Below, in pieces: positions 16,184 to 35,346 of a stretch of 48,858 nt of DNA. The stretch lies in assembly GCA_005223145.1 (NCBI GenBank), contig NJBL01000008.1:1-48858 (forward strand), read 5' to 3'. This DNA is from a bacterium (candidate division B38) B3_B38 (GTDB lineage: Bacteria; Acidobacteriota; B3-B38; Guanabaribacteriales; B3-B38). The position numbers were made by a program, and so were the translations under genes. The notes under the pieces are model-generated. The model was not told the DNA's origin. It searched no databases and saw only the letters and a program-made list of their open reading frames with translations. How positions within the stretch are numbered: the first letter of the stretch is position 1; every line of letters starts with the position of its first letter.

Positions 16184-17191
16184 TCAGTGCTCCCTGGGTA
16201 CTTCTATTGATTCCGGTTCATACTTGCCAAAGATCATCTTTCCTGCGGTAGTCTGAAGGACGCTGGTCACCACCACTTTGATTGTCTTACCAATAGCCTT
16301 TCTGGCATTGTCTACCACCACCATTGTACCATCATCTAAATATGCCACCCCTTGCGAAGGCTCTTTCCCCTCCTTTATGATGAAGACCCGCATCATCTCC
16401 CCGGGCAAGACCACCGGCTTTAGCGCATTAGCCAACTCGTTTATGTTCATAACCTCAATCCCTCTCAACTGGGCTATCTTATTGAGGTTGAAATCGTTGG
16501 TGACAATCTTACCTCCCAGGTGTTTGGTCACCTCTATCAACTTCAGGTCAACCTCTTTAATATTGGGGAAGTCAAGCTCCGAAATCTGAACATTGATGTG
16601 GGCTTGCTTCTTTATCCTCTGCAAGATGTCCAGTCCCCGCCGCCCCCGGTTCCTCTTAAGGCTATCGGAGGAGTCGGCTACCCGCTGTAGCTCCCGCAAA
16701 ATAAACTGGGGGACAATCAAGCTACCATCAATAAAGCCAGTCTCGCAGACATCGGCTATCCTCCCATCTATGATTACGCTGGTATCCAGAACCTTGTATC
16801 TCTCTATCACCCCTCGCTCTTTGAACGCTGCCTTTATATTCCTCAGGTCGAGCCACTCCCCTTTTTGGGCTCCTACCACCAGCCCCAAGTAACCCAATCC
16901 TCCCAGAAGCAACAACCTAACGAAATAATCCCCCACAAAAGAAAACTCCATCCCTCCGAGAATTGCGATTACCAAACTGGCCAAAGCAATTCCCACTAAG
17001 AAACCAATAAGGGATCCTATCAGAACTTTTACCGGCAATTTCCGGACCTTAATATCAAGAGCTATAACGATGAGGGAGAGAATGAATCCAAACCCCATCC
17101 CCACCAAGTTTGCTAACCCCAAGGGCGCAAGGAAATAGCCAATGGTTGAACAGAGAACAACGAAGACAACCCTGATAATCAAGATTCCCAC
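16184..17191 (-). CDS. PIN/TRAM domain membrane protein (YacL-like)
   Basis: N-terminal TM helices, PIN domain VLDTSVIIDGRIADVCETGFIDGSLIVPQFIL, C-terminal TRAM-like segment. Confidence 0.9.
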   Translation of the reverse strand: MGILIIRVVFVVLCSTIGYFLAPLGLANLVGMGFGFILSLIVIALDIKVRKLPVKVLIGSLIGFLVGIALASLVIAILGGMEFSFVGDYFVRLLLLGGLGYLGLVVGAQKGEWLDLRNIKAAFKERGVIERYKVLDTSVIIDGRIADVCETGFIDGSLIVPQFILRELQRVADSSDSLKRNRGRRGLDILQRIKKQAHINVQISELDFPNIKEVDLKLIEVTKHLGGKIVTNDFNLNKIAQLRGIEVMNINELANALKPVVLPGEMMRVFIIKEGKEPSQGVAYLDDGTMVVVDNARKAIGKTIKVVVTSVLQTTAGKMIFGKYEPESIEVPREH

Positions 17192-17368
17192 TCTTTTTCA
17201 CCTCCTAACAAAAAAGATGCCTGTTCAAAATTTATTAATATATTGGCTAAAAAGATTCTTTTATTAACCTCATTTAGTACATCCATCTTTCTCCTACTTT
17301 CTGGACATTAGAAAGAGTTTACTGCATATACTCTTCATCCGGGGATTTCTTCCTTTTTTATAGTGTAT

Positions 17369-18016
17369 TTATTGAGCTTCCTTCTCTTTTTTAATTGGTT
17401 CGGCAAAGAACATCTTAAAAATTGTAAAAAGCAAATTCTCTTCTCGAATCAGCTTAAAGCCAGCTTTGTGAATATTATCTGAAGTTTTTCTATTAATGTG
17501 AACACCACTGAGTGCTGAAGTCAACGGGTCGAGAGTATTGAATGTCCACGCCATCAGTGCATTCTCTGGAAGCACGTGCTCAATAAGCAGCGCCTGACCT
17601 TCCGGCTTGAGTACTCGTTGTATTTCTTGCAGTCCTTTAATTGGGTCAGGCACAGAGCAAAATACAAAGGTTGCTACTACTGTATCAAAAATGCTATCAC
17701 CAAAAGCGAGCTGCTGAGCGTCCATCAGGGCCAGAGGAATCCCTTTGGATTTAGCAAGAGGCTTCGCTTTAAACATCATCTCTTCACTTAGATCCACGCC
17801 GGTAGCCCAGTATTCCTGTCGGTAATATCGTAAATTTTTTCCCGTGCCAACGCCTACTTCCAAAACTCGAGGGCCTCTGACTTTCCTGAATAATCGCCTG
17901 CGCCAACGCGCATACCAGAAAAGCTCCAATGGCAATTCCATCAGATTATAGAACTTGGCGTTGCGGTCATACTTTTTCCGCGTTATAAGAGTAGCTTTCT
18001 CTATTTCCATGTTCAT
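17369..18016 (-). CDS. Class I SAM-dependent methyltransferase
   Basis: VLEVGVGTGKNLRYY, ATGVDLSEEMM, FDTVVATFVFCSVPDPIKGLQEIQRVLKPEG. Confidence 0.88.
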   Translation of the reverse strand: MNMEIEKATLITRKKYDRNAKFYNLMELPLELFWYARWRRRLFRKVRGPRVLEVGVGTGKNLRYYRQEYWATGVDLSEEMMFKAKPLAKSKGIPLALMDAQQLAFGDSIFDTVVATFVFCSVPDPIKGLQEIQRVLKPEGQALLIEHVLPENALMAWTFNTLDPLTSALSGVHINRKTSDNIHKAGFKLIREENLLFTIFKMFFAEPIKKEKEAQ

Positions 18017-18072
18017 TGAATAACTCTTAGTATTCCTTCTGCCGTATGTTTTTATCTCCTTGATTAAAACTG

Positions 18073-18528
18073 CTAAATACGATCTATGATTTTCTTTAAT
18101 TTGCCCTGAACTTTCTCAGCAATTTTGAGCAACCTTGGGTTCTCAATCGCTTTCATTGATGCTACCGGGTCCACAGCAGACACTTCCACTTCAGATGGGG
18201 AAACCTCTTGAACAATCACATTACATGGCAGCATGGTGCCAATTTTGTTCTCAACCTGTAATGCTTCATAGGCAAAAGAGGGATTGCACGCACCTAAGAT
18301 TTTGTATTTTGGAAAATCTACATTCAGCTTTTTCTTGAGAGTCTCCTTGACATCGATCTCTGTTATGACACCAAACCCCTCTTTCTTCAGCTCATCTTTT
18401 ACCCTTTCAATTGCTTCATCGTAGGACATATTTAATGTTTTGGTAAAATGGTAGCTAAACAATAGTACCTCCTGCTCATTAGTCAACTTAACAAAACTTT
18501 TTTGATTAAAGGAGGTCCAACACAACAC
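18073..18528 (-). CDS. DUF302 domain protein (start uncertain; 18429 also possible)
   Basis: MSYDEAIERVKDELKKEGFGVITEIDVKETLKKKL...YKILGACNPSFAYEAL...LPCNVIVQE pattern of DUF302. Confidence 0.85.
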   Translation of the reverse strand: MLCWTSFNQKSFVKLTNEQEVLLFSYHFTKTLNMSYDEAIERVKDELKKEGFGVITEIDVKETLKKKLNVDFPKYKILGACNPSFAYEALQVENKIGTMLPCNVIVQEVSPSEVEVSAVDPVASMKAIENPRLLKIAEKVQGKLKKIIDRI

Positions 18529-18547
18529 CTTGGATTGGACCCCCTTT
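18508..18547 (-). terminator. Stem-loop just downstream of the Met-rich gene; terminator or attenuator
   Basis: AAAGG(A)GGTCCAA ... TTGGACC(C)CCTTT inverted repeat; no strong T tract. Confidence 0.4.
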
Positions 18548-18555
18548 AAGACTCA

Positions 18556-19017
18556 TTACTCCTTGGTCTTCTCCTTCTTCATCTCTTCCATTCTTTTGCT
18601 CATCTCCTGCATGTTGTTCATAGCGCTCTGCATGTGCTCGGTCATCGTCTTCATATGCTCCTGGAACTGCTCCATATGCTTTTTCATAACTTTATCTTTC
18701 ATCATCTCCTCATTCATCATCATCGAATCCATGTTCTCCATCATGCCCTTCATATGCTGAGACATATAATGCATTCTCATCATCATATTTCTCATATTCA
18801 TCATCCCCATGCATTCAGGATGCATCTTCTGTCCCATCATCATATCCATGTTCTTCATCATTTCACCGCACCGGCTCATCATTTTGTCCATGGATTGCAT
18901 CATCTCTTTCTGGTGCATCTTAGCTTTTTCCTGCCCGGAAAAGCCGATTGCTCCCCAAGTAAAGACTAAAAGAATGATAGAAGAAGAAATGCCCAAGGTC
19001 TTAAGATGCTTTCTCAC
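18556..19017 (-). CDS. Extremely Met-rich exported protein, function unknown
   Basis: Signal-like N-terminus (LGISSSIILLVFTWGAIGFS) followed by MM/HM/MMM repeats; about 42 Met in 153 aa by hand count. Confidence 0.75.
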   Translation of the reverse strand: MRKHLKTLGISSSIILLVFTWGAIGFSGQEKAKMHQKEMMQSMDKMMSRCGEMMKNMDMMMGQKMHPECMGMMNMRNMMMRMHYMSQHMKGMMENMDSMMMNEEMMKDKVMKKHMEQFQEHMKTMTEHMQSAMNNMQEMSKRMEEMKKEKTKE

Positions 19018-19244
19018 GATTGTCGCCTCCTTTTTTATTGGGTTGTGCTATTTATAGCCTCTTCTATCTTTCAATATATATAATGCCAAATAAGTTGTTT
19101 TCTTACATTCATTCTTAATTATCAGGCAGTTCGGAGCAATATCCGAGATCTCACACCTTGCCCTAAGGTACAGTGAGTCGCAGATCTCAGGAAATATCTT
19201 CTGATTTTAATCGGTCTTTCCTTTTTTGAATTGATTTTTAATTT

Positions 19245-19475
19245 TCAAGAGAGTAAATCTCTCTTTTTCTGCTCAAATTCTTCTTTGTCGATCTCTCCTT
19301 TAGCATACCTTTTTTTCAATATTTCTAAAGGACTTTCACTCTGCCTGGTCTCACCTGGTCTGCTTTGCTGAATTAACCATTTAATGAAAAAGACCAAACC
19401 AACAATAACCAGAACCCAAAATATCCACATAAACCACCCGAACATCCAGTGATCTCCCCACATCATCTTTATCAC
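19245..19475 (-). CDS. SHOCT domain membrane protein
   Basis: Trp/Met-rich TM helix, then C-terminal [27 protein letters not shown] (SHOCT). Confidence 0.85.
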
Positions 19476-19508
19476 CTCTTTTTATGTGCCTAAGATCTTT
19501 TATCTCCT

Positions 19509-20876
19509 TTAAAACAGTGCCTCTATCGCTTCCTTGAGCGACCTTACCCCTATGAGCTCGATTTTCGGCCTCAGCTCCGATAAAGCCAGATTACTCTTGG
19601 GCAGAATACACCTTTTGAAGCCCATAGCCGCCGCCTCTTTGATGCGTGAGGACGCCTGGCTTATCCCCCTCACCTCTCCGGTTAAACCCACCTCTCCGAA
19701 GATGGCTGTGTGGGAGTCAACTGCCACATTCTTAAAGCTCGAGGCAATGGCAATGGCCACTCCCAGGTCAGTTGCTGGCTCGAGGACCGACACCCCACCG
19801 GCCAGGTTTACAAAGATGTCGTTCCCCATGAGCTTAAACCCCATCCGCTTATCCAGCACGGCAATAAGAAGGAAGACCTTATTGTAATCGAGTCCTATGG
19901 TTACCCGCCGTGGATTCCCATAGCTGGAGGAGCTGACCAGCGCCTGCACCTCTACCAGCAGCGGACGAGAGCCCTCCATACAGCTTATCACTACCGAGCC
20001 AGGGACATTTATGGAGCGCTCAGCTAATAGCACCTGCGAGGGATTGGGCACCGGCTGCAGCCCCCGGGTACCCATCTCAAATATTCCCAGCTCGTTAGCT
20101 GGTCCGAAGCGGTTTTTAACCGCCCGGAGAATACGATGGGCTTGATGTCGTTCTCCCTCAAAATAGAGAACTGTATCTACTATATGCTCCATGGTGCGGG
20201 GACCAGCGATATAGCCCTCCTTGGTGACATGACCGATAATAAAAATCGGAATCTTTCGACTCTTTCCAAAAAAGAGCAGCTGCAAAGCCCCCTCACGCAC
20301 CTGGCTGATGCTCCCCGGAGCTGACTGAAATCGGAGGGAGAAGATGGTCTGGATGGAATCTACTATTATGGTTGTGGGGCGCAGCCTATCCACCTGCTCG
20401 AATACTCTCTCCAGGCAGGTCTCTGCCAGAAAATAAAGCTTGTCAGGGCGAAGCTTAAGCCTTTCACCCCGCAGCCTGATCTGGCTTTCTGACTCCTCGC
20501 CAGAAATATAGAGGATAACCTCTCCCTGGAGGGAGAGCTTCTCGGCTATCTGAAGAAGGAGGGTCGATTTTCCGATGCCTGGCTCTCCCCCTATCAGCAC
20601 CAGGGAGCCGGGGACAATCCCTCCACCCAACACCCGGTCAAATTCATCTATTCCTGTCTTGAGCCTGCGAAGCTCCTTTTCGTCAATCTCCTGATAAAGG
20701 CGAGGGACTGCCTCCTCCTCCAGGAAAGGTGCCCACTGCTCGCCGATGAGGGCTCCTTTCTGTCTCTCCTCCACCAGGCTGTTCCAACTGCTACATTCGG
20801 GGCAGCGCCCCAACCACTTGGGACTCTGATAACCGCAGCTCTGGCAGATAAAAATAGTTCGTTCCTTTTTATCCAT
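19509..20876 (-). CDS. radA: DNA repair protein RadA
   Basis: Zn finger FICQSCGYQSPKWLGRCPECSSWNS, GGEPGIGKSTLLLQ, KNRFGPANELGIFEM, C-terminal Lon-like domain. Confidence 0.97.
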   Translation of the reverse strand: MDKKERTIFICQSCGYQSPKWLGRCPECSSWNSLVEERQKGALIGEQWAPFLEEEAVPRLYQEIDEKELRRLKTGIDEFDRVLGGGIVPGSLVLIGGEPGIGKSTLLLQIAEKLSLQGEVILYISGEESESQIRLRGERLKLRPDKLYFLAETCLERVFEQVDRLRPTTIIVDSIQTIFSLRFQSAPGSISQVREGALQLLFFGKSRKIPIFIIGHVTKEGYIAGPRTMEHIVDTVLYFEGERHQAHRILRAVKNRFGPANELGIFEMGTRGLQPVPNPSQVLLAERSINVPGSVVISCMEGSRPLLVEVQALVSSSSYGNPRRVTIGLDYNKVFLLIAVLDKRMGFKLMGNDIFVNLAGGVSVLEPATDLGVAIAIASSFKNVAVDSHTAIFGEVGLTGEVRGISQASSRIKEAAAMGFKRCILPKSNLALSELRPKIELIGVRSLKEAIEALF

Positions 20877-20884
20877 AGATTTTC

Positions 20885-22303
20885 TCAGAATCTGTAGCCT
20901 ATGCCAAATAACAATTGCCGTCTATCCTTGCTTAAGAAGTCGTCATAACCTCCACTAAAAAAGAGTCCTCCATAAGGGAAAAAGTTGACCCTAAAACGGC
21001 AATGGGGGTTATTCTCTCGACCGAAGTTGAAGGCATCGATGGAGAAGCTCATTTGCTCCTTAGCAATGAAGAAATCAAGCCCGGCTCCAAATTCCGACTC
21101 AATCAGACCTCCCCTCAGGAGCAATTGGCTAAACCTCTGCCCGACCTGGGCAGACATCAGGAATCCCTTCTCCTGGGTTGTTGTCCTGACCTGGGAAGTA
21201 AGAATAGCGCCGGTGGGGTCAATGGTCTCCATCTCTCTGGTGGTAGTCACCCTTCTGCCCACCTGGTCGTCAATCAACTCCAGAAGGAAGAGCCGGTTAC
21301 CCCGCGTACGAAAGCCAAGCCCGAAGTAGGTCTTGAAGTTAGAGCTATCGAAATAATAATCGGTCTTAAACCCCAATATGAGGTCCAGAGAACCGAATCC
21401 CCGAACTATCTTCCGCGTTTCGCTTGCTGTCTCACTGACACTGTGGATGGTGCTTTTTACTTTATCCCTGACTTCATCATCATAGATAAGCTCCCCTATG
21501 GTCCCCTCCCCTTTTTTTATCTTGGAGAGGATTTCGTTGAGGGTCTTGAGGCTCTCGTCGAGCTTCTCGCCCACCCTTTTTATATTGGTTATTCCTTCTT
21601 GAAGGTCTGCCCTGTTTTCCTCAATCACAGCATCAATGTTCTGGCTGAAGTTCCTGATGTTCTCAACAATATGAGGAACCTGAGTCCTGAGGTCATCCGT
21701 AAGGAGAACCATCTTGTCAAAGGCAAGGTTAATCTTCTCCTTGTTGGTGTCAGATAGCTCCACCAGGGTACTGGAGAGCTTGTCCCAGGTGGCAAAAAAC
21801 TGCCTTACCCCTTTTTGACTCTCTTCGGAGCCGATAACCTCCCGCACATAATGGACCATATTGTCTATCTCTGCCCCGATGGAGTGCATCACTCCCACCA
21901 TCTGGTCGAGGCTGGTCGGGGCGAGCCCCTCTACTCGCCCTCCATTAAGAACCCGCGGATTGGCAGGGGTGCCTGAAGAAACCTCTATGTATTTCTCCCC
22001 CAGAAGACCGATGGTGCTTACCGCTGCTTTTGCATCAGCGTAAATTTTGACCGCTGGGTCTATTATCAGGGTCACCTCTGCTGTTCCTTTATCGGTAAGC
22101 CTTATATCAGAGACTCTCCCTACCTTATAGCCAGCCAGCCGAACATCGGCATCGGCCTCCAACCCGGCAATGGAGGAGAATTCCACCTTCACCAGGTAAC
22201 CCTTCTCCCTTACCCAGGGGAGGTTTTCGCTTTTGAGCAATAAATATCCGAGAAGGGAGAGACCGATTATAACAAAGATGCCAACCTTTAGTTCAGTTCT
22301 CAT
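20885..22303 (-). CDS. mlaD: MCE-domain lipid transport protein MlaD with C-terminal beta-barrel-like extension
   Basis: MCE domain (VRLAGYKVGRVSDIRLTDKGTAEVTLIID, STIGLLGEKYIEVSSG), long helical middle, about 175 aa amphipathic beta-strand C-terminus ending LLFGIGYRF. Confidence 0.88.
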   Translation of the reverse strand: MRTELKVGIFVIIGLSLLGYLLLKSENLPWVREKGYLVKVEFSSIAGLEADADVRLAGYKVGRVSDIRLTDKGTAEVTLIIDPAVKIYADAKAAVSTIGLLGEKYIEVSSGTPANPRVLNGGRVEGLAPTSLDQMVGVMHSIGAEIDNMVHYVREVIGSEESQKGVRQFFATWDKLSSTLVELSDTNKEKINLAFDKMVLLTDDLRTQVPHIVENIRNFSQNIDAVIEENRADLQEGITNIKRVGEKLDESLKTLNEILSKIKKGEGTIGELIYDDEVRDKVKSTIHSVSETASETRKIVRGFGSLDLILGFKTDYYFDSSNFKTYFGLGFRTRGNRLFLLELIDDQVGRRVTTTREMETIDPTGAILTSQVRTTTQEKGFLMSAQVGQRFSQLLLRGGLIESEFGAGLDFFIAKEQMSFSIDAFNFGRENNPHCRFRVNFFPYGGLFFSGGYDDFLSKDRRQLLFGIGYRF

Positions 22304-22320
22304 GGGCCCTCCTTTGTATT

Positions 22321-23070
22321 CTATTCGAGGGTTGGTATTGGTCCCTCGGCTTCGCCATGGATAAATTGTTGCACCACTGGGTTGGAGGAGCTTTTTATCT
22401 CCTCAGGTGAGCCAGTCTCGATAATCTTCCCCTTATAGAGCATGGCAATACGGTCAGCGATCTTGAAGGCGCTCACCATATCGTGGGTGATAGCCACCGA
22501 GGTCACCCTGAGCTTCTCTTTCAGGTCAACGATGAGGTTGTTGATAGCATCAGCCATTATGGGATCAAGCCCGGTGGAGGGTTCATCATAGAGGATGATC
22601 TCCGGCTGCAAAGCGATAGCCCTGGCTAACCCTACTCGCTTTTTCATCCCTCCACTTAGCTCCGCTGGGCTCAGGTGCTCACCACCCTCCAACCCCACCA
22701 TTCTCAAGCACTCCTTCACCCTTTCCTCTATCTCCTTCCGCTTCATTTTGGTGTTCTGCATAAGGGCGAAACCTACGTTCTCGCTAACCGCCAGAGAATC
22801 AAACAGAGCAGCATACTGGAACAGCATGCCGAACTTTTTTCGGAGCTGATTGAGCTCTTTCTCCTTCAATTCATTGACCTTAATCCCGTCAACCCACACC
22901 TCACCGGCATCGGGCTTCAGCAGTCCGATAATGTGCTTGATGAGCACGGTCTTTCCAGAGCCACTGCGACCCATAACCACCATAGATTCCCCCTTCTTCA
23001 CCTCTAAATTGACCCCATCGAGCACATGATGATTACCAAAAGATTTATGGACATCTATCAGCTCAATCAT
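22321..23070 (-). CDS. mlaF: ABC transporter ATP-binding protein (MlaF-like)
   Basis: GRSGSGKTVLIKHIIGLLKPDAGEV, LSGGMKKRVGLARAIALQPEIILYDEPSTGLDP; start set at MIELIDVHKSF. Confidence 0.93.
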   Translation of the reverse strand: MIELIDVHKSFGNHHVLDGVNLEVKKGESMVVMGRSGSGKTVLIKHIIGLLKPDAGEVWVDGIKVNELKEKELNQLRKKFGMLFQYAALFDSLAVSENVGFALMQNTKMKRKEIEERVKECLRMVGLEGGEHLSPAELSGGMKKRVGLARAIALQPEIILYDEPSTGLDPIMADAINNLIVDLKEKLRVTSVAITHDMVSAFKIADRIAMLYKGKIIETGSPEEIKSSSNPVVQQFIHGEAEGPIPTLE

Positions 23071-23087
23071 CCCTGCTCCTTCTATAT

Positions 23088-23855
23088 TTAAATACCCCAA
23101 AGAACTTTGGTAAGGAAGAAATCGAGAATCAGTATACTCATACAGGCAACCACAACCGCCTTAGTTGTGGCTCTGCCCACTCCCTTAGCTCCCCCTTCGG
23201 TATTGAAACCGTAGTAGCAACCCACCAGGGTTATCCCCAAACCAAAGAAGGCGGCCTTGATCAACCCATTGGTTACATCCCCCAGCTCTAAAATATCAAA
23301 GCTGCTTTTGACATAAATGGTGGGATTTGTTCCCAGCAGATTCACACTTACCAAATACCCACCGAACATGCCGATGCTGTCAGCAAATATGGTTAAAACC
23401 GGGAGTATGATGATTCCTGAAATAATGCGGGGGACCACCAGGTATTTGACCGGGTTGGTGGCCAAGGTCTCCAGGGCATCGATCTGCTCGGTGACTTTCA
23501 TAGTGCCTATCTCAGCCGCCATAGCCGAGCCTGCCCTGCCTGCCACCATCAGGGCAGTCAACACCGGGGCTAACTCCCGACAGATGGAGAGGGAGACCAC
23601 CGGCCCAATGAGGGTTTCGGCTCCGAAGCGCTGAAACCCCTGATAGCTCTGCAAGGCAAAGACCATTCCCGTGAACCCTCCCGTTATCAGCACCACCGGC
23701 AGAGAGCGGATACCGAACTCCTCCATCTGATTGGCAATCAGCCTGAGCTGTAAGGGGGGGCGAAATATCCAAAAAACACTTTTCAGTAAAAGGATAAATA
23801 TGTTCCCCATCTCGGAGCAAAATCTCACCACCCCTTTTTCAATTAATTTGAGCAT
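23088..23855 (-). CDS. mlaE: MlaE family ABC transporter permease
   Basis: GFTGMVFALQSYQGFQRFGAET, AELGTMKV-like IGTMKVTEQIDALETLATNPVKYLVVPR motif. Confidence 0.93.
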   Translation of the reverse strand: MLKLIEKGVVRFCSEMGNIFILLLKSVFWIFRPPLQLRLIANQMEEFGIRSLPVVLITGGFTGMVFALQSYQGFQRFGAETLIGPVVSLSICRELAPVLTALMVAGRAGSAMAAEIGTMKVTEQIDALETLATNPVKYLVVPRIISGIIILPVLTIFADSIGMFGGYLVSVNLLGTNPTIYVKSSFDILELGDVTNGLIKAAFFGLGITLVGCYYGFNTEGGAKGVGRATTKAVVVACMSILILDFFLTKVLWGI

Positions 23856-23891
23856 AATCCTTCAGCTATAAACCCAATAAAAAGAAGCCAC

Positions 23892-25235
23892 CTACTCCTC
23901 CTCCTGGGTGGAAAGGTCGAAGAAGGTGGTAAGCTCTTTCCTGAATACAAGCCTCACCATCCCGGTGGGTCCATTCCGCTGCTTGCCGATTATCAGCTCC
24001 GCTCGCCCCTCGTTCTCCTTAAGAGGTTCGTATTCCTCCTCGCGGTAGATAAAGCAGACCAGGTCGGCATCCTGCTCTATAGAGCCCGACTCGCGCAGGT
24101 CGGAGAGCTGGGGACGGTGGTTTTTTCTTATGTCCGGAGCTCGGCTGAGCTGAGAGAGAGCAATCAGTGGGACCCTCAACTCCTTAGCCAGTCCTTTCAG
24201 CGCCCGGGAGATGCTCGATATCTCCTGCACGCGGTTTTGATACTGCCCCGTAGGGTGCATCAGCTGGAGGTAATCTACGATGAGGAGGGTCAAACCGTGC
24301 TCCAGCATAAGCTTACGAGCCTTGGCTCGCATCTCCACTACCGATATGGCGGGTGTATCATCAATAAAGATGTTTGCCCGAGAAAGGACTTCCAGAGCCT
24401 GACCCAGTCTCCTCCACTCCTTCTCCCCGAGGTAGCCTGTCTTAAGCTTATGGGCGTCGACCCGGGCTTCGGAACAGAGCATCCTGAGGAGAAGCTGCTC
24501 TCGGGACATCTCCATGCTGAAAATCCCCACCGTATTCTCTTCTCTCTTACCCACATATTGGGCTATATTGAGGCTCAGGCTGGTCTTCCCCATAGCGGGG
24601 CGGGAGGCTATAACCACAAGATCTGAGGTCTGAAGACCAGAGGTGAGCTCGTTAAACCGAGAGAAGGGTGTGGGAACCCCGGTTATCAGCTCCCTCCTCT
24701 CTTGGAGATGGTCGAGGGTTTTGAAGCTCGCTTTGGCTATATCTTTTATAGGAACAAAGCCAGAGGTTATCCTTCCTTCGGCAATCTCAAAGACGGAGCG
24801 CTCAGCAAGGTCGATAACGGAATCGATTTCTTCATCCTGGGCATAACACTTGCTAATCACCTGATTGGAAGCGGAAATTAAGCGCCGGAGGACCGATTTC
24901 TCTTTCACAATGCGGGCATAGTGCTCTATATTGGTGGAACGAGGGACACCATCGATGAGGGAAGCTAAGTAGGCAGGTCCTCCCACCCTCTCTAGTTCGC
25001 CGCTGTCAGCGAGAGATTCCTTGAGAGTCACCAGGTCTATTGCCCTGGATTTATCCCATAGGTCAACCATCTTAAGGAAGACCCTTCGGTGGCTCTCCCG
25101 GTAGAAGTCGTCGCCGGTCAACAGCTCTATGGCCTCGTTAAGGGTTCTGTTGTCCAGCAGAATGGCACCCAGCACAGAGCGCTCCGCTTCGAGGCTATGG
25201 GGGAGCACCTTCTCTAAAGTAAGGTCATCTGCCAT
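23892..25235 (-). CDS. dnaB: Replicative DNA helicase DnaB
   Basis: LPHSLEAERSVLGAILLD, VIASRPAMGKTSLSLNIA, LLIVDYLQLM, SQLSRAPDIR. Confidence 0.97.
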   Translation of the reverse strand: MADDLTLEKVLPHSLEAERSVLGAILLDNRTLNEAIELLTGDDFYRESHRRVFLKMVDLWDKSRAIDLVTLKESLADSGELERVGGPAYLASLIDGVPRSTNIEHYARIVKEKSVLRRLISASNQVISKCYAQDEEIDSVIDLAERSVFEIAEGRITSGFVPIKDIAKASFKTLDHLQERRELITGVPTPFSRFNELTSGLQTSDLVVIASRPAMGKTSLSLNIAQYVGKREENTVGIFSMEMSREQLLLRMLCSEARVDAHKLKTGYLGEKEWRRLGQALEVLSRANIFIDDTPAISVVEMRAKARKLMLEHGLTLLIVDYLQLMHPTGQYQNRVQEISSISRALKGLAKELRVPLIALSQLSRAPDIRKNHRPQLSDLRESGSIEQDADLVCFIYREEEYEPLKENEGRAELIIGKQRNGPTGMVRLVFRKELTTFFDLSTQEEE

Positions 25236-25330
25236 CGTTCGCCTCCCCTTATTTGATATTTAAAGAACTCTGTTATCAATATTAAATTTCTTTTATTATA
25301 TATTAAAACCTGCCTAAAGTAAACTAAAAA

Positions 25331-25774
25331 TTACTCCTTTACCACCCACACCTTCACCTCTCCCATAACTTCGGCATAGAGCTTTATCTTCACCGAGTAG
25401 ACCCCCAACCGTTTGATAGACTGTTCCATAATTATTCTTTTGCGGTCAATTTCTAAACCTTCCTGTTTTAAAGCTTCGACTATTTCCCCAGGGGTAACCG
25501 AGCCGAAAAGAATGTCCTGCTCGCCTGCTTTTTTCCTGATGGTCAAGGAGATTTTCTGGAGCCTGGCTACCATCTCTTCAGCATCTTCCTTCTTCTGTAA
25601 GCAGTGGGTCTCCTCAATCTTCTGCTCCCTTTCCAACAGTTTCATGTTCTTCAGGGTAGCAGACAGGGCTAACCCTTTGGGCAAAAGATAGTTTCTGGCA
25701 TATCCATCGGCTACATCGACCACATCTCCCCGCTGTCCCAATTGGGAGACGCTCTCCTTTAAGATTACTTTCAC
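25331..25774 (-). CDS. rplI: 50S ribosomal protein L9
   Basis: VKVILKESVSQLGQRGDVVDVADGYARNYLLPKGLA; GTG start preferred to the longer ORF start. Confidence 0.95.
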   Translation of the reverse strand: MKVILKESVSQLGQRGDVVDVADGYARNYLLPKGLALSATLKNMKLLEREQKIEETHCLQKKEDAEEMVARLQKISLTIRKKAGEQDILFGSVTPGEIVEALKQEGLEIDRKRIIMEQSIKRLGVYSVKIKLYAEVMGEVKVWVVKE

Positions 25775-25947
25775 ATCAATACCTCCATTAAAAAAGATAC
25801 CTTTTCCCCTTATAAATCTTTGACTATATAAAAGAACCATACGGTGTCTTACCTATTCTTGAGGTAGAACCTTCATCAAATGATTTAAGGGACGGGAAAT
25901 CTGCACTTTTCAAGAGGATAGGCAACCGCAGAGTTTGCTCTCTTCCC

Positions 25948-26217
25948 TTATCGATAGTCGGTAGTATAAGGTAGAAGAGCTATATTTCGTGCTCTTTTAA
26001 TAGCAACCGTTAGCTTCCGTTGGTGTCGAGCACAGGTGCCTGAAATTCGCCGAGGGAAGATTTTTCCCCTTTCAGGTATATACTCTTGTAAAAGTCTCAC
26101 ATCTTTGTAATCAATCTCGTCAATCTTATTGGCGCAGAACTTACATACTTTCCGCCGTCTATAGGTAAACCGGCGATAAAACTGGTCTGTTTTCCTCTTC
26201 CTCCTTCCAAAGCGCAT
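25948..26217 (-). CDS. rpsR: 30S ribosomal protein S18
   Basis: [62 protein letters not shown]. Confidence 0.95.
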
Positions 26218-26277
26218 CCCACCGCTCCTTTCCTGAAAATTAGGGTTTCTCATTATCCCGTAGGGGGGCTTCCTGTT

Positions 26278-26719: not shown

Positions 26720-28609
26720 TTACAAGAACCCCTTTTTCAATAAGGTGGCAACGATGACCGATGTGACCGCCATAACTATTACTACGCTATTTATCAACGG
26801 GCTTACCCCTTCTCTCAGAGTCTCCCCTATCAGGTCGCCAACCTTATAGACTGAACAATCACCGGAGCTCCCCCCCTTTCTTTTCCCTCTCTCCATAAAG
26901 ATTCTGGCACCCTGCCAGGCGCCCCCTCCGTTGGTCATAAATATGGAAAGGACAATCCCTGAAAGGACGACCCCTCCCAACAGTCCTCCTAACGCTTCTC
27001 TTCCCATCAGAAATCCCACCATGGGTGGGGTGCCAAGGGCTATAATCCCGGGCAAAGCCATTTCTTTCAGAGAAGCATTGGCGGAGAACTTGGCCACCAG
27101 GGTGAGCCACTTATCTTCCCTTATTCCCTTTTGCTTATCTTTCCCTGGGGATAACTTCTTGCTCATTTCCCTGGAAGCCCTCCTCAGAGAAGATATCACT
27201 AAAGAGGCTATAAAAAAGGGTATCAGCCCCCCCAGGAGGAGACTAGCAATGATTCGGGGGCTTGCTATATCGATTATATCTATCCCTTCCACAGAGTAGT
27301 AGGCAGTAAAAAGAGCGATAGAAGCTACCGCTGAAAAACCGAGGACAAGCCCCTTACTGGAAGAAGCCCTCTCCTCCTCTACCAGGCTCTCCTGACAGCT
27401 AAGAGCCAGAAATATCCCCATAACGGACGACAGGGCCATTGTGGCTACCCCCATTCCAAAAAGCCCCAGAAGCCGGTGAACCAAATAAACGGCCAAGCAG
27501 AGTGTCACAATAGGGACAGCGGTGCTCTGCATTCCTGAAGCAAAACCGCTGATGATATTAGTAGCTATTCCGGTAGAAGCAGAGCGGGCAACCGCCCTGG
27601 CAGGATTAGACCGAACATAATATTCACTGGTGCCCAAAATTGCCATCCCTGTTATTAGACCTAAAAGGCTGACTTCCCATATTTCCGTCCCCTGTGGGAG
27701 ATGGAGAGAGAAAAGATATATCGCCAAGACCAGCAAAGCGAAGGATAATATGGAGGGAATTCCAAAATTTGATAAGAATCCTCTTCTGATTCTCGCAAAT
27801 AAATAGCCTATTACAGAAGCCCCAAAGCCAGCTATTATCAACAGCAATAGGAGCTCCTCCCAGGAAGAACCTCCTGTGGAGGAGTGCATCCCCGTAATAG
27901 TCAAAGCCGCTGCCGAAGCCCCATAGCAGGCAAACAGACCAACGGATACTCCCGCAAAGTTCCCTAACCTATTTTTAACCAATCTGGCAGCAGAAGCCAA
28001 CTCAGGGGAACTTGAGGGAGGGGAGCTTTCCCCCTCCGAGGCTATGGCCCTGATAGCTCCCAGGGCAAACACCTCCCCACTCATATACATTGCCAGGGAT
28101 ACCAGGCTTATGCCGAGGGCAAATCCGCTGATATCTCTCCCTGACAGAAGGTTGAGCCTTAAAGATTTCAATAGAACCCCCATAGCCAACATCCCCAGGC
28201 TGGCGACCAAAAGACCTGTTAATCCAGCCGCCTGATAGGCTATTGTCTCCCGCTTTCTTGCCCACTTCTTTTGCTGCGGTAATCTTTCATCAGTCCTGGC
28301 TGCAATTCTCAAGGTGAAATGCCCGATGATTAGAGAGGCAACTCCCCCCAATAAAAAGGTGCTCCCCATTGCCCAGCTGAGCTGCCAGCCGAGCAGGAAA
28401 AACAAGGCAACCATAACCATACAGAGAGCGGCAAATTGGCGGCGTATGAAACCTTTTATAATATGGTCGGCAACCCGCAAAGTCCCACTGGGAATCCCCC
28501 CCGCTTGAGGTCTCTTCATAAGCCAGAAGAAATGGAGTATAACGACCAGGAGGAAGCTGACTCCCCCCACTAAAAGGACGATCTCCTCTAATCCCATCAT
28601 CTTAATCAC
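26720..28609 (-). CDS. Membrane-bound pyrophosphatase-like protein with degenerate catalytic motifs
   Basis: Fold signatures retained: GLITGMAILGTSEYYVRSN, STGIATNIISGFASGMQSTAVP, SLKEMALPGIIALGTPPMVGFLMGREALGGLLGGVVLSGIVLSIFMTNGGGAW; catalytic DxxxD motifs missing. Confidence 0.85.
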   Translation of the reverse strand: MIKMMGLEEIVLLVGGVSFLLVVILHFFWLMKRPQAGGIPSGTLRVADHIIKGFIRRQFAALCMVMVALFFLLGWQLSWAMGSTFLLGGVASLIIGHFTLRIAARTDERLPQQKKWARKRETIAYQAAGLTGLLVASLGMLAMGVLLKSLRLNLLSGRDISGFALGISLVSLAMYMSGEVFALGAIRAIASEGESSPPSSSPELASAARLVKNRLGNFAGVSVGLFACYGASAAALTITGMHSSTGGSSWEELLLLLIIAGFGASVIGYLFARIRRGFLSNFGIPSILSFALLVLAIYLFSLHLPQGTEIWEVSLLGLITGMAILGTSEYYVRSNPARAVARSASTGIATNIISGFASGMQSTAVPIVTLCLAVYLVHRLLGLFGMGVATMALSSVMGIFLALSCQESLVEEERASSSKGLVLGFSAVASIALFTAYYSVEGIDIIDIASPRIIASLLLGGLIPFFIASLVISSLRRASREMSKKLSPGKDKQKGIREDKWLTLVAKFSANASLKEMALPGIIALGTPPMVGFLMGREALGGLLGGVVLSGIVLSIFMTNGGGAWQGARIFMERGKRKGGSSGDCSVYKVGDLIGETLREGVSPLINSVVIVMAVTSVIVATLLKKGFL

Positions 28610-32390: not shown

Positions 32391-33269
32391 TCAACGTCCG
32401 AAGATGATGGGACCCTTCCCTTCAATCTCCTCCAGCAATATTCTCCTTGCTCCCACCGGGGGGACGAAACGGAATGCCGAGCTCTCTATAGTAGGGAGGT
32501 TGCAATCTATCCTGCTGGCGTTTAAGGTCAACTTAACCCTCTCTTTCACCAGAAACACGGTTACCTTGCCCGGCACTTCCCTCCTACCCAACCGAAGGAA
32601 ATTGGAATACTCCACATTAAAGATGCTTTTCTCGGTGGATAAGTCGCGCATACTCCCTTTAAGAAGACGCTCCTTGATGGGGTCTATCCAGTAGGCTGCC
32701 TCCAAAGCGGCATTCTGGCTTCTTGCTATCACCCTGATGAGCAGTGACTTCGGATGCCATTCCACCCTTGTCACCTGATAGTTGGAAAAGGAGAGGAACT
32801 GTCCCATCCATACGAGAAGTAGCTCCTCACCATTGAGCCCGATTCCCAAAATCTTCTTGAAATTCTCTCTGGTAGGGCTCTCGTAGAGATACTCACCCAT
32901 CTCCGGGTAGTAAAGATAGAAGGTGGAGCCATCGGAGACCAAAAGGGTGGTAGCCATCCCCATAGGGTTAAGAATCTCCAGACGGAAAAGGCTGGGTTTC
33001 TTCAGCATCAGGGTATTCTTCGCCTGATAGCTCTTCCCCCTATGTTCCGCCTTTATGGTAAAGAACCCGCCCAGGCTCTCTATTGCAGACCAGTTATCCT
33101 CAATTATTCCCGGATAGAAACCCGCCCTGGAAGCTACTTTTTCAACTACTTCAGGAGGGACGCTAATCGGGCGGACACCATGGCAAGCGGGCAATAGCAG
33201 ACCCACCATCGCCAGGATAACTACCAAAAAGGGGACAGCGAACCTGCTTTGCCAGAGGTGAGCGAACAC
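32391..33269 (-). CDS. Outer-membrane lipoprotein, LolA/LolB-like fold (start uncertain)
   Basis: Lipobox-like VGLLLPAC, then LEILNPMGMATTLLVSDGSTFYLYYPEMGEYLY typical of LolB/DUF4292 proteins; GTG start avoids overlap with the TPR gene. Confidence 0.7.
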   Translation of the reverse strand: MFAHLWQSRFAVPFLVVILAMVGLLLPACHGVRPISVPPEVVEKVASRAGFYPGIIEDNWSAIESLGGFFTIKAEHRGKSYQAKNTLMLKKPSLFRLEILNPMGMATTLLVSDGSTFYLYYPEMGEYLYESPTRENFKKILGIGLNGEELLLVWMGQFLSFSNYQVTRVEWHPKSLLIRVIARSQNAALEAAYWIDPIKERLLKGSMRDLSTEKSIFNVEYSNFLRLGRREVPGKVTVFLVKERVKLTLNASRIDCNLPTIESSAFRFVPPVGARRILLEEIEGKGPIIFGR

Positions 33270-33312
33270 CAGAGGGTTATAAAGACAAAAGGAAGGAGTC
33301 CCCCGGCGACTC

Positions 33313-35346
33313 TCAGTTTTCCAGCTTGGTCTTGAGCTTCTCAATTTTTTCCCGCACTTTATTGCCATCTTCTATGCCCAAGGAGATTGCTTTCTCCCAC
33401 TCCTGGAGAGTTTCTTTGAAGCGTCCCAACTTGTAATAGAGGTCACCCAGATGGTCGTGAATCTCCGGGGAATTGCCCTCTTTTTCAACTGCCAGGGTGA
33501 GATATTTCTCAGCCAATTCCATATTGTTCAGCTTGAAATAAGCCCACCCGAGGCTATCCAGGTAGGAGCCATTGTTCACATCGAGCTCGAGAGCCCTCTT
33601 AATGAACCCGATAGACTCCTGGAGTCTGATCCCCATCTCAGCTAACATATAGCCCAGATAGTTGAGGGCTAAGTGGTTGTCGGGGTTGTTGGCTATTACC
33701 TTTCTAAAGGTCTCTTCGGCAAGCTCAAACCTCTTGGTCCTCTCGTAAACACTTCCCATATTGAAAAGGAGGGTGTCGTTTTCAGGAAAGATACTCAAAG
33801 CCTTATTGAGAACCTCCTCAGCCTGCTCATATCTCTTAGCCCTTGTATAAATCTCAGAAAGGGCAATATTAAGGAGGGGATTGTTCTCCCCCTCCTGTAT
33901 CTTATCCGTGATGAGCTTTGTGCCCTCCTCTATTTTGCCTTTCTCACCCAGAATCTCCGCCTTCAGGATAAGAAAAGTATTTGAAGAAGGGGAAATCAGC
34001 ATCTGTTGGTCGCAGATTTCCAGCGCCTTGTTGCTCTCTTTGTTGCGGTGATAGGAGAGGACTAAGTAGGGTAAAATTGAACGGTCAATCCTGGGGTTTA
34101 GCTTCAATGCTTGCTGAAAAGACTGGATAGCACGAGGAAAATCCTGACTCTGGTAATACACAATACCTATTTTTGCCCTTAGGCTCGCCTCCTCATTATC
34201 CCCCAGTTTAATCTCTCCCTTATCTCTCATAGAGAGCAGATGAAGGTATACTGCCAGAGCTTGGGGGTAATCCTTCAAATCGATGTAAAGCTGGGCAATG
34301 TGAAATCGACCATCCACATCGTCAGGATATTTTTCCAGCATCTGGAGGTAAAGCTTCTCCGCCTCCTCATATCTTCCGAGCTTATGATAGGCGAAAGGCA
34401 AGTAGGTAAGAGCAAAGCGGTTATCAGGCTCATAGGAAAGTACTGTGGAGAACTCCTCAGACGCTTTTTCATAATCCTCCCCTTCCAGATACTCCAGGGC
34501 TAAGCTGTTGCGCAAACCGACATCACCAGGAAGAGCTTCCAGCCCCTTCTGATAGGTCAATATGGCATTGGGGGTATCTTTGAGCAACCGATAAACGCTT
34601 GCTAAAGTGGTAATCGCCCGCAGATAGCCGGGTCTTATTTCCAGAGCTTGTTTGAGATTTTCTATGGCAGAGGGGTAATCTTTCTGCTCCAGGTAGTTCT
34701 TGGCTAAATAGAACCTCGCCTCCTCCGATTGGGAATTGCCTTGAAGATATTCATAAAGGGCTTTAATAGACTCCTGATAGTTCTTCTGAGTCAGGTAAAG
34801 CTTCCCCAGGGTCAGGTATATCTCATTGTTTGACTTGTCAAGCTTTAATGCCGCTTCAAACTCTTCTACCGCCTTCTCTGCATACTGGCTTTTATCTTCG
34901 GAATAGAGGAACAGGCTGTAATATACATTCCCTAAAAGTCGGTGAGGGGAAGAGCTCTGAGGGTCAAGCTCAATCGCCTGCTGACAATGGCTTATGGCTT
35001 TCTGGATATATCCCCTCTGGTAATACAAAAGAGCAAGCGACTCATAGAGATAAGATGATTGAGGGTCCTGCTTCAAAGCCTCCTGGTATTGGGTAATTGC
35101 CTCCTCGTATCTACTTCTCAACTGGAAAAGGTAAGCGAGACTGAAACGATAATAAGCCTCTGCCCTTGCTGAAGAATCCTCCTCACTACTCCCCTTGGGA
35201 GCGGAAATCACCTCTCCCGCTGCTAATACTGCGGAGACTATGAGGAAAAAAATGAGAAAAAAGCAAAGGATAGGATTCAAGGGATATGCCTTTTTCCCAC
35301 CCCAGATTCCTTTATAGCAAAGCATTATCATATCATCTATATTCAA
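33313..35346 (-). CDS. Large TPR repeat protein
   Basis: Many tandem TPR units (e.g. AISHCQQAIELDPQSSSPHRLLGNVYYSL; DNHLALNYLGYMLAEMG). Confidence 0.9.
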   Translation of the reverse strand: MNIDDMIMLCYKGIWGGKKAYPLNPILCFFLIFFLIVSAVLAAGEVISAPKGSSEEDSSARAEAYYRFSLAYLFQLRSRYEEAITQYQEALKQDPQSSYLYESLALLYYQRGYIQKAISHCQQAIELDPQSSSPHRLLGNVYYSLFLYSEDKSQYAEKAVEEFEAALKLDKSNNEIYLTLGKLYLTQKNYQESIKALYEYLQGNSQSEEARFYLAKNYLEQKDYPSAIENLKQALEIRPGYLRAITTLASVYRLLKDTPNAILTYQKGLEALPGDVGLRNSLALEYLEGEDYEKASEEFSTVLSYEPDNRFALTYLPFAYHKLGRYEEAEKLYLQMLEKYPDDVDGRFHIAQLYIDLKDYPQALAVYLHLLSMRDKGEIKLGDNEEASLRAKIGIVYYQSQDFPRAIQSFQQALKLNPRIDRSILPYLVLSYHRNKESNKALEICDQQMLISPSSNTFLILKAEILGEKGKIEEGTKLITDKIQEGENNPLLNIALSEIYTRAKRYEQAEEVLNKALSIFPENDTLLFNMGSVYERTKRFELAEETFRKVIANNPDNHLALNYLGYMLAEMGIRLQESIGFIKRALELDVNNGSYLDSLGWAYFKLNNMELAEKYLTLAVEKEGNSPEIHDHLGDLYYKLGRFKETLQEWEKAISLGIEDGNKVREKIEKLKTKLEN

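Follow-up and report, generated by a model that had tools for sequence, protein, structure and literature searches.

How does a bacterium with an Mla-type inner-membrane transporter, and with neither MlaA nor MlaC in its genome as far as searches reach, connect that transporter to its outer membrane? The question is raised by the mla locus of B3_B38, which lies in a 48,858-nucleotide stretch of DNA (the window). The genes mlaE (permease, 23088..23855), mlaF (ABC ATPase, 22321..23100) and mlaD (20885..22303) are all on the minus strand and read in one direction with short gaps, mlaD being the last. On the same strand, dnaB (23892..25235) lies upstream of mlaE, and radA (19509..20876) lies downstream after an 8-base gap; both were named from sequence and both are conserved neighbours. 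MlaE matches PF02405 (E 3.2e-85) and scores above the cut-off of TIGR00056. The annotated start of mlaF is a TTG; translation may in fact begin at an ATG located 10 codons further into the gene, at ~23070. The mlaD reading frame starts with ATG, has no internal stop and encodes 472 residues that, by Pfam and AF2, form a protein of the long type: transmembrane helix, MCE domain, helical stalk and C-terminal β-barrel. No additional reading frame of the size of MlaB, a STAS protein, fits between mlaE and radA.

A preliminary description of this DNA gave the same coordinates for mlaD to the base, omitting only the minus strand, and grouped mlaD with mlaE and mlaF, which do lie directly upstream. 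The peptides it quoted, including the terminal LLFGIGYRF, are all present in the translation. Two other genes of the window deserve mention. Between radA and a PIN/TRAM gene, and adjoining a DUF302 protein, positions 18556-19017 encode a small, exported-looking protein that is very rich in methionine (with many M, K and H) and possibly binds metal. Positions 26720-28609 encode a membrane pyrophosphatase of 629 residues; PF03030 matches it in two stretches, and its shape suggests a diverged member of that family.

The rest of the genome was searched for the parts that complete the Mla route elsewhere. The assembly (2.25 Mb in 102 contigs, 93% complete) contains a single match to PF02470, MlaD itself. 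MlaC (PF05494) and MlaA (PF04333) have no match in this 93% complete genome, and the same searches were positive in E. coli and Caulobacter. The preliminary description had reported mlaA and mlaC to be missing nearby and had named separate homologues elsewhere in the genome as evidence against its proposal; no such match was found in the assembly. LptD is present, BamA, Skp, LpxD and LpxA occur in one cluster, and a LolD-like ATPase scores below its model cut-off, so it is likely from these sequence matches that B3_B38 bears an LPS-containing outer membrane. At window positions 32391-33368 lies a lipoprotein-like gene with weak similarity to DUF4292, LolB and LolA, below the NCBIfam cut-offs, which may have a role in lipoprotein handling. 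TamB (PF04357) has no match in the genome, possibly through either an assembly gap at 93% completeness or divergence of the protein, and none lies beside the second Omp85 protein. That protein (L141:8635-11541), the one additional Omp85 match that the genome gave, has 969 residues, combines a TolB-like propeller region with an Omp85 C-terminal barrel and, judged by its gene neighbours, is not TamA-like.

MlaD begins with a single transmembrane helix at residues 3-24 (22232..22297, minus strand), supported by an AF2 helix, by a hydrophobic segment and by alignment with the N-termini of solved MlaD proteins, and predicted to be the inner-membrane anchor. One MCE domain follows at residues 35-111 (21971..22201, minus strand; PF02470, E 2.1e-19), with modelled strands at residues 36-126; Foldseek aligns it with E. 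coli MlaD at a TMt that reaches 0.86. Next comes the long helical region that had been proposed after the MCE domain, modelled at residues 132-300 (21404..21910, minus strand) and predicted to form the wall of a periplasm-crossing tunnel. The AF2 model of this stalk has pLDDT below 50. Its hydrophobicity repeats strongly at 100 degrees, with a value of 0.42 compared with 0.23 ± 0.03 in shuffled sequences (0 of 300 shuffles reach it), a pattern to be expected of a helical tube lined with hydrophobic residues. At 173 residues, the stalk would extend up to ~26 nm if straight, enough to span the periplasm, at the low confidence of the model.

A PDB sequence search with the MlaD profile returned MCE and coiled-coil matches and none to the barrel. 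The whole-protein Foldseek search scored the MCE part alone, its best matches being chains of the mycobacterial Mce1 transporter, and the barrel was therefore folded and searched separately. In the full-length AF2 model, residues 307-472 (20888..21385, minus strand) form ten strands, at residues 307-317, 322-332, 337-361, 367-391, 394-401, 404-413, 418-425, 434-444, 447-454 and 463-471, with pLDDT mostly 77-92 and a few lower stretches. The C-terminal 177 residues folded alone gave the same ten strands (mean pLDDT 88.5, pTM 0.75). The alignments behind the AF2 models, from which homologues gathered by genome search were left out, were shallow, at 17 rows (full length) and 15 rows. Strands 3 and 4 form an elongated hairpin (residues 337-391; 21131..21295, minus strand). 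The last strand, QLLFGIGYRF with its terminal F (residues 463-472; 20888..20917, minus strand), resembles an outer-membrane protein β-signal in both sequence and model.

Nearly all PDB matches to the barrel alone were outer-membrane barrels (porins, OmpA, invasin/intimin, FapF and designed barrels); TMB10_163, one of the designed barrels, scored highest (TM 0.55 by query and 0.66 by target). Hydrophobicity alternates along the strands at 1.02 compared with 0.50 ± 0.12 after shuffling (0 of 5000), a measure that is not fully independent since the strands themselves come from the model. A ten-stranded barrel has its two ends on one side. Of the five turns that would face the periplasm, the C-terminal end being counted as one, four are short, and the extended hairpin of strands 3 and 4 would point outward. 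In our reading, this layout matches what is expected of an outer-membrane protein entered from a periplasmic stalk. The C-terminus of MlaD is thus predicted to be a ten-stranded barrel of the outer-membrane type. The preliminary description had joined MlaD to such a barrel and had taken a soluble, non-barrel C-terminus as grounds for abandoning the idea; structure prediction gave a membrane-type barrel instead, starting near residue 307 and not at 297.

MlaD with a C-terminal barrel has been described before and is widespread. Grasekamp et al. (2023; PMC10665443) reported it in Veillonella parvula; on fractionation, the TM-MCE part of that protein was recovered with the inner membrane and its barrel with the outer. 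Among MlaD sequences of many diderm phyla, the same study inferred such a barrel in 103 and proposed that it is ancestral. The suggestion that an unrelated host would extend the Veillonella design had therefore been overtaken. MlaEFD of B3_B38 shares with V. parvula one transmembrane helix, one MCE domain, ~150-170 helical residues and a ten-stranded barrel, all in an mlaEFD operon accompanied by a likely LPS-type outer membrane and by no detected MlaA or MlaC, and three Negativicute barrels (L082, L101, L090) align with that of B3_B38. The differences are small. B3_B38 is probably one of the Acidobacteriota and V. parvula is one of the Bacillota; MlaD has 472 residues in the former and 419 in the latter; the long hairpin of strands 3 and 4 is largely absent from Negativicute barrels; the operon lies between dnaB and radA in B3_B38 and upstream of tolC and tamB in V. 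parvula; and TamB is undetected in B3_B38.

Other MCE systems are more distant. The E. coli MlaFEDB-MlaC-MlaA system shares MlaE, MlaF and the transmembrane and MCE domains of MlaD. However, E. coli MlaD stops at 183 residues, lacking both stalk and barrel, and operates with MlaA and MlaC, neither of which has a match in B3_B38; in these respects the B3_B38 locus differs from the six-part type. PqiB and LetB (YebT) of E. coli and Mce1A-F of mycobacteria are periplasm-spanning MCE hexamers, an arrangement that B3_B38 may share, and a helical tube is a feature of PqiB and Mce1. These proteins have several MCE rings or six different chains, and no ten-stranded outer-membrane barrel on each chain. 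Every feature of the long trans-envelope type for which we looked is found or predicted in B3_B38. The locus is a further example of that type, and not a new machine.

We consider it likely that MlaEFD with its long MlaD is a hexameric, trans-envelope phospholipid bridge, probably retrograde, that functions without MlaA and MlaC. MlaE and MlaF would form the inner-membrane ABC transporter. By homology with solved MCE proteins, six MlaD chains would be anchored around MlaE by their transmembrane helices, their MCE domains making a ring above MlaE and their stalks a helical tube across the periplasm, and every chain is predicted to carry an outer-membrane barrel of ten strands at its end. Phospholipids would cross the hydrophobic tube between the membranes, driven by ATP, if tunnel and substrate are as in the homologues. 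The direction is probably from outer to inner membrane, as judged from V. parvula and E. coli, and such a retrograde flow would keep the LPS-bearing outer membrane asymmetric. With only ten strands, and with a filled interior, a barrel is probably too tight to let a lipid through. We infer that the barrels serve as anchors, holding the end of the tube against the inner leaflet of the outer membrane, and not as lipid conduits.

The preliminary description had called this a single-protein bridge, which was too strong, as MlaE and MlaF are needed along with a hexamer expected by homology with solved MCE proteins. The trans-envelope bridge itself is plausible given the operon, the domain order, the predicted barrel, the lack of any match to MlaA or MlaC, the LPS-export and outer-membrane machinery, full-length homologues of like layout within and beyond the phylum, and the fractionation and mutant phenotypes in V. 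parvula. Counted against it are the low-confidence stalk, the undetected TamB, the shallow alignments, and three relatives that encode MlaC in addition to a barrel.

The same architecture could also serve another direction or substrate, either as an anterograde phospholipid exporter to the outer membrane or, like the mycobacterial Mce systems, as an importer of environmental hydrophobic compounds. Anatomy does not set the direction, the whole-model fold matches are best to Mce1 chains, and without a detected TamB, anterograde transport lacks an assigned carrier in this genome. In V. parvula, TamB works in opposition to Mla. Against this reading, V. parvula mutants of the same architecture behave as retrograde. 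The B3_B38 operon is also short, its MlaE and MlaF belong to the general type, and it has no catabolic genes next to it. We regard a different direction or substrate as unlikely.

Less probable still, with only a slight chance of being correct, is that the β-domain is soluble or degenerate and is not inserted in the outer membrane, leaving MlaD as a periplasmic stalk with some other outer-membrane partner. The membrane barrel rests on prediction, and the barrels of many other long MlaD proteins are said to be incomplete (PMC10665443). To contrast, the B3_B38 barrel has ten complete, high-confidence strands with alternating hydrophobicity, it matches outer-membrane barrel folds, its last strand ends in F, and it is conserved across phyla. 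Finally, an assembly artefact or fusion error that attached a barrel from another gene might be suspected in a draft genome of 102 contigs, and is excluded by relatives in which the full-length, uninterrupted reading frame and the gene order recur: three congeneric genomes (84% identity) and a further genome from the same order (43%).

Relatives of B3_B38 also carry the long MlaD. Full-length homologues among 60 relatives have 84% identity within the genus, 43% within the order and 25-35% in other families, and a barrel-bearing MlaD occurs in 44 of 149 sampled genomes of the phylum. MlaA was found in none of 60 genomes of the phylum and MlaC in three. A homologue of MlaC (~206 residues) and a barrel MlaD occur together in three genomes of one family (G004, G019 and G032), and the two are therefore not strictly exclusive. 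In the MlaE tree, sequences of the phylum are intermixed with named Thermoanaerobaculia and Aminicenantes records, and other named Acidobacteriota copies are placed elsewhere; the probable assignment of B3_B38 to the Acidobacteriota is based on this tree. Other MCE proteins of the phylum (L030, L031) have different C-termini; that of L031 appears OmpA-like by eye and may be another route to the outer membrane or cell wall.

The barrels can also be aligned between phyla. A barrel profile of the phylum matched that of Myxococcota, Desulfobacterales and Bdellovibrionota (hhalign 99.9%, E 5.7e-34), that of Negativicutes and kin (97.6%, E 4.4e-12, 136 columns) and that of Elusimicrobiota (96.1%, E 2.8e-9), these E-values being pairwise, from small profiles, in a fold class whose members are alike in general. 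A motif of approximately GG-x-x-ES-x-x-G-x-G-x-D recurs in barrels across phyla. This sequence evidence supports a single origin of the MlaD barrels, and is less than proof. Tree distances for the N-terminal part and the barrel are correlated (Mantel r 0.42; 0 of 2000 permutations), as expected if the MCE part and the barrel travelled together.

Gene position provides a separate line of evidence. The order rpsR-rplI-dnaB-mlaE-mlaF-mlaD-radA-PIN/TRAM (window 16184-26253) is kept in most relatives within the phylum that have flanking sequence. Beyond it, 80 named loci were picked by MlaE similarity alone, a choice biased towards MlaE near the query; of the 66 with enough flank, 32 have a co-directional dnaB upstream, and radA lies downstream in 29 of 69. 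Both genes flank the operon in Poribacteria, Elusimicrobiota and alphaproteobacteria, often with rpsR-rplI ahead of them and a PIN/TRAM ATPase gene behind; four Omnitrophota have just radA, and Nitrospinota and one spirochaete just dnaB (the slot was seen at L038, L046, L051, L057, L061, L100, L114-L116 and L129-L131). Neither flanks the surveyed loci of Negativicutes, Myxococcota and Bdellovibrionota. At many alphaproteobacterial loci, mlaE and mlaF occupy the slot and MlaD is undetected beside them.

Taken together, alignable barrels, divergence that tracks the MCE part and a recurrent slot favour old vertical inheritance. It is possible, though not quite probable, that a single ancient fusion of MlaD to a barrel survives as an early-bacterial relic in the dnaB/radA slot, and that alphaproteobacteria dropped MlaD from it as MlaABC arose. 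In a limited literature search, no paper combined the terms of the dnaB-mlaEF(D)-radA slot, a weak sign that the slot is new. In our view, the conserved slot is the only fresh element here; the remainder is of a type already known.

If the relic proposal is true, the slot would be a sequence-independent marker of orthology for the ancestral Mla system. It offers independent evidence on the age of that system, as gene position needs no alignment of fast-evolving MCE proteins. The locus, in a lineage that probably belongs to the Acidobacteriota, supports the proposal that in many diderm bacteria phospholipids travel back from the outer membrane along a protein bridge, in place of the E. coli shuttle.
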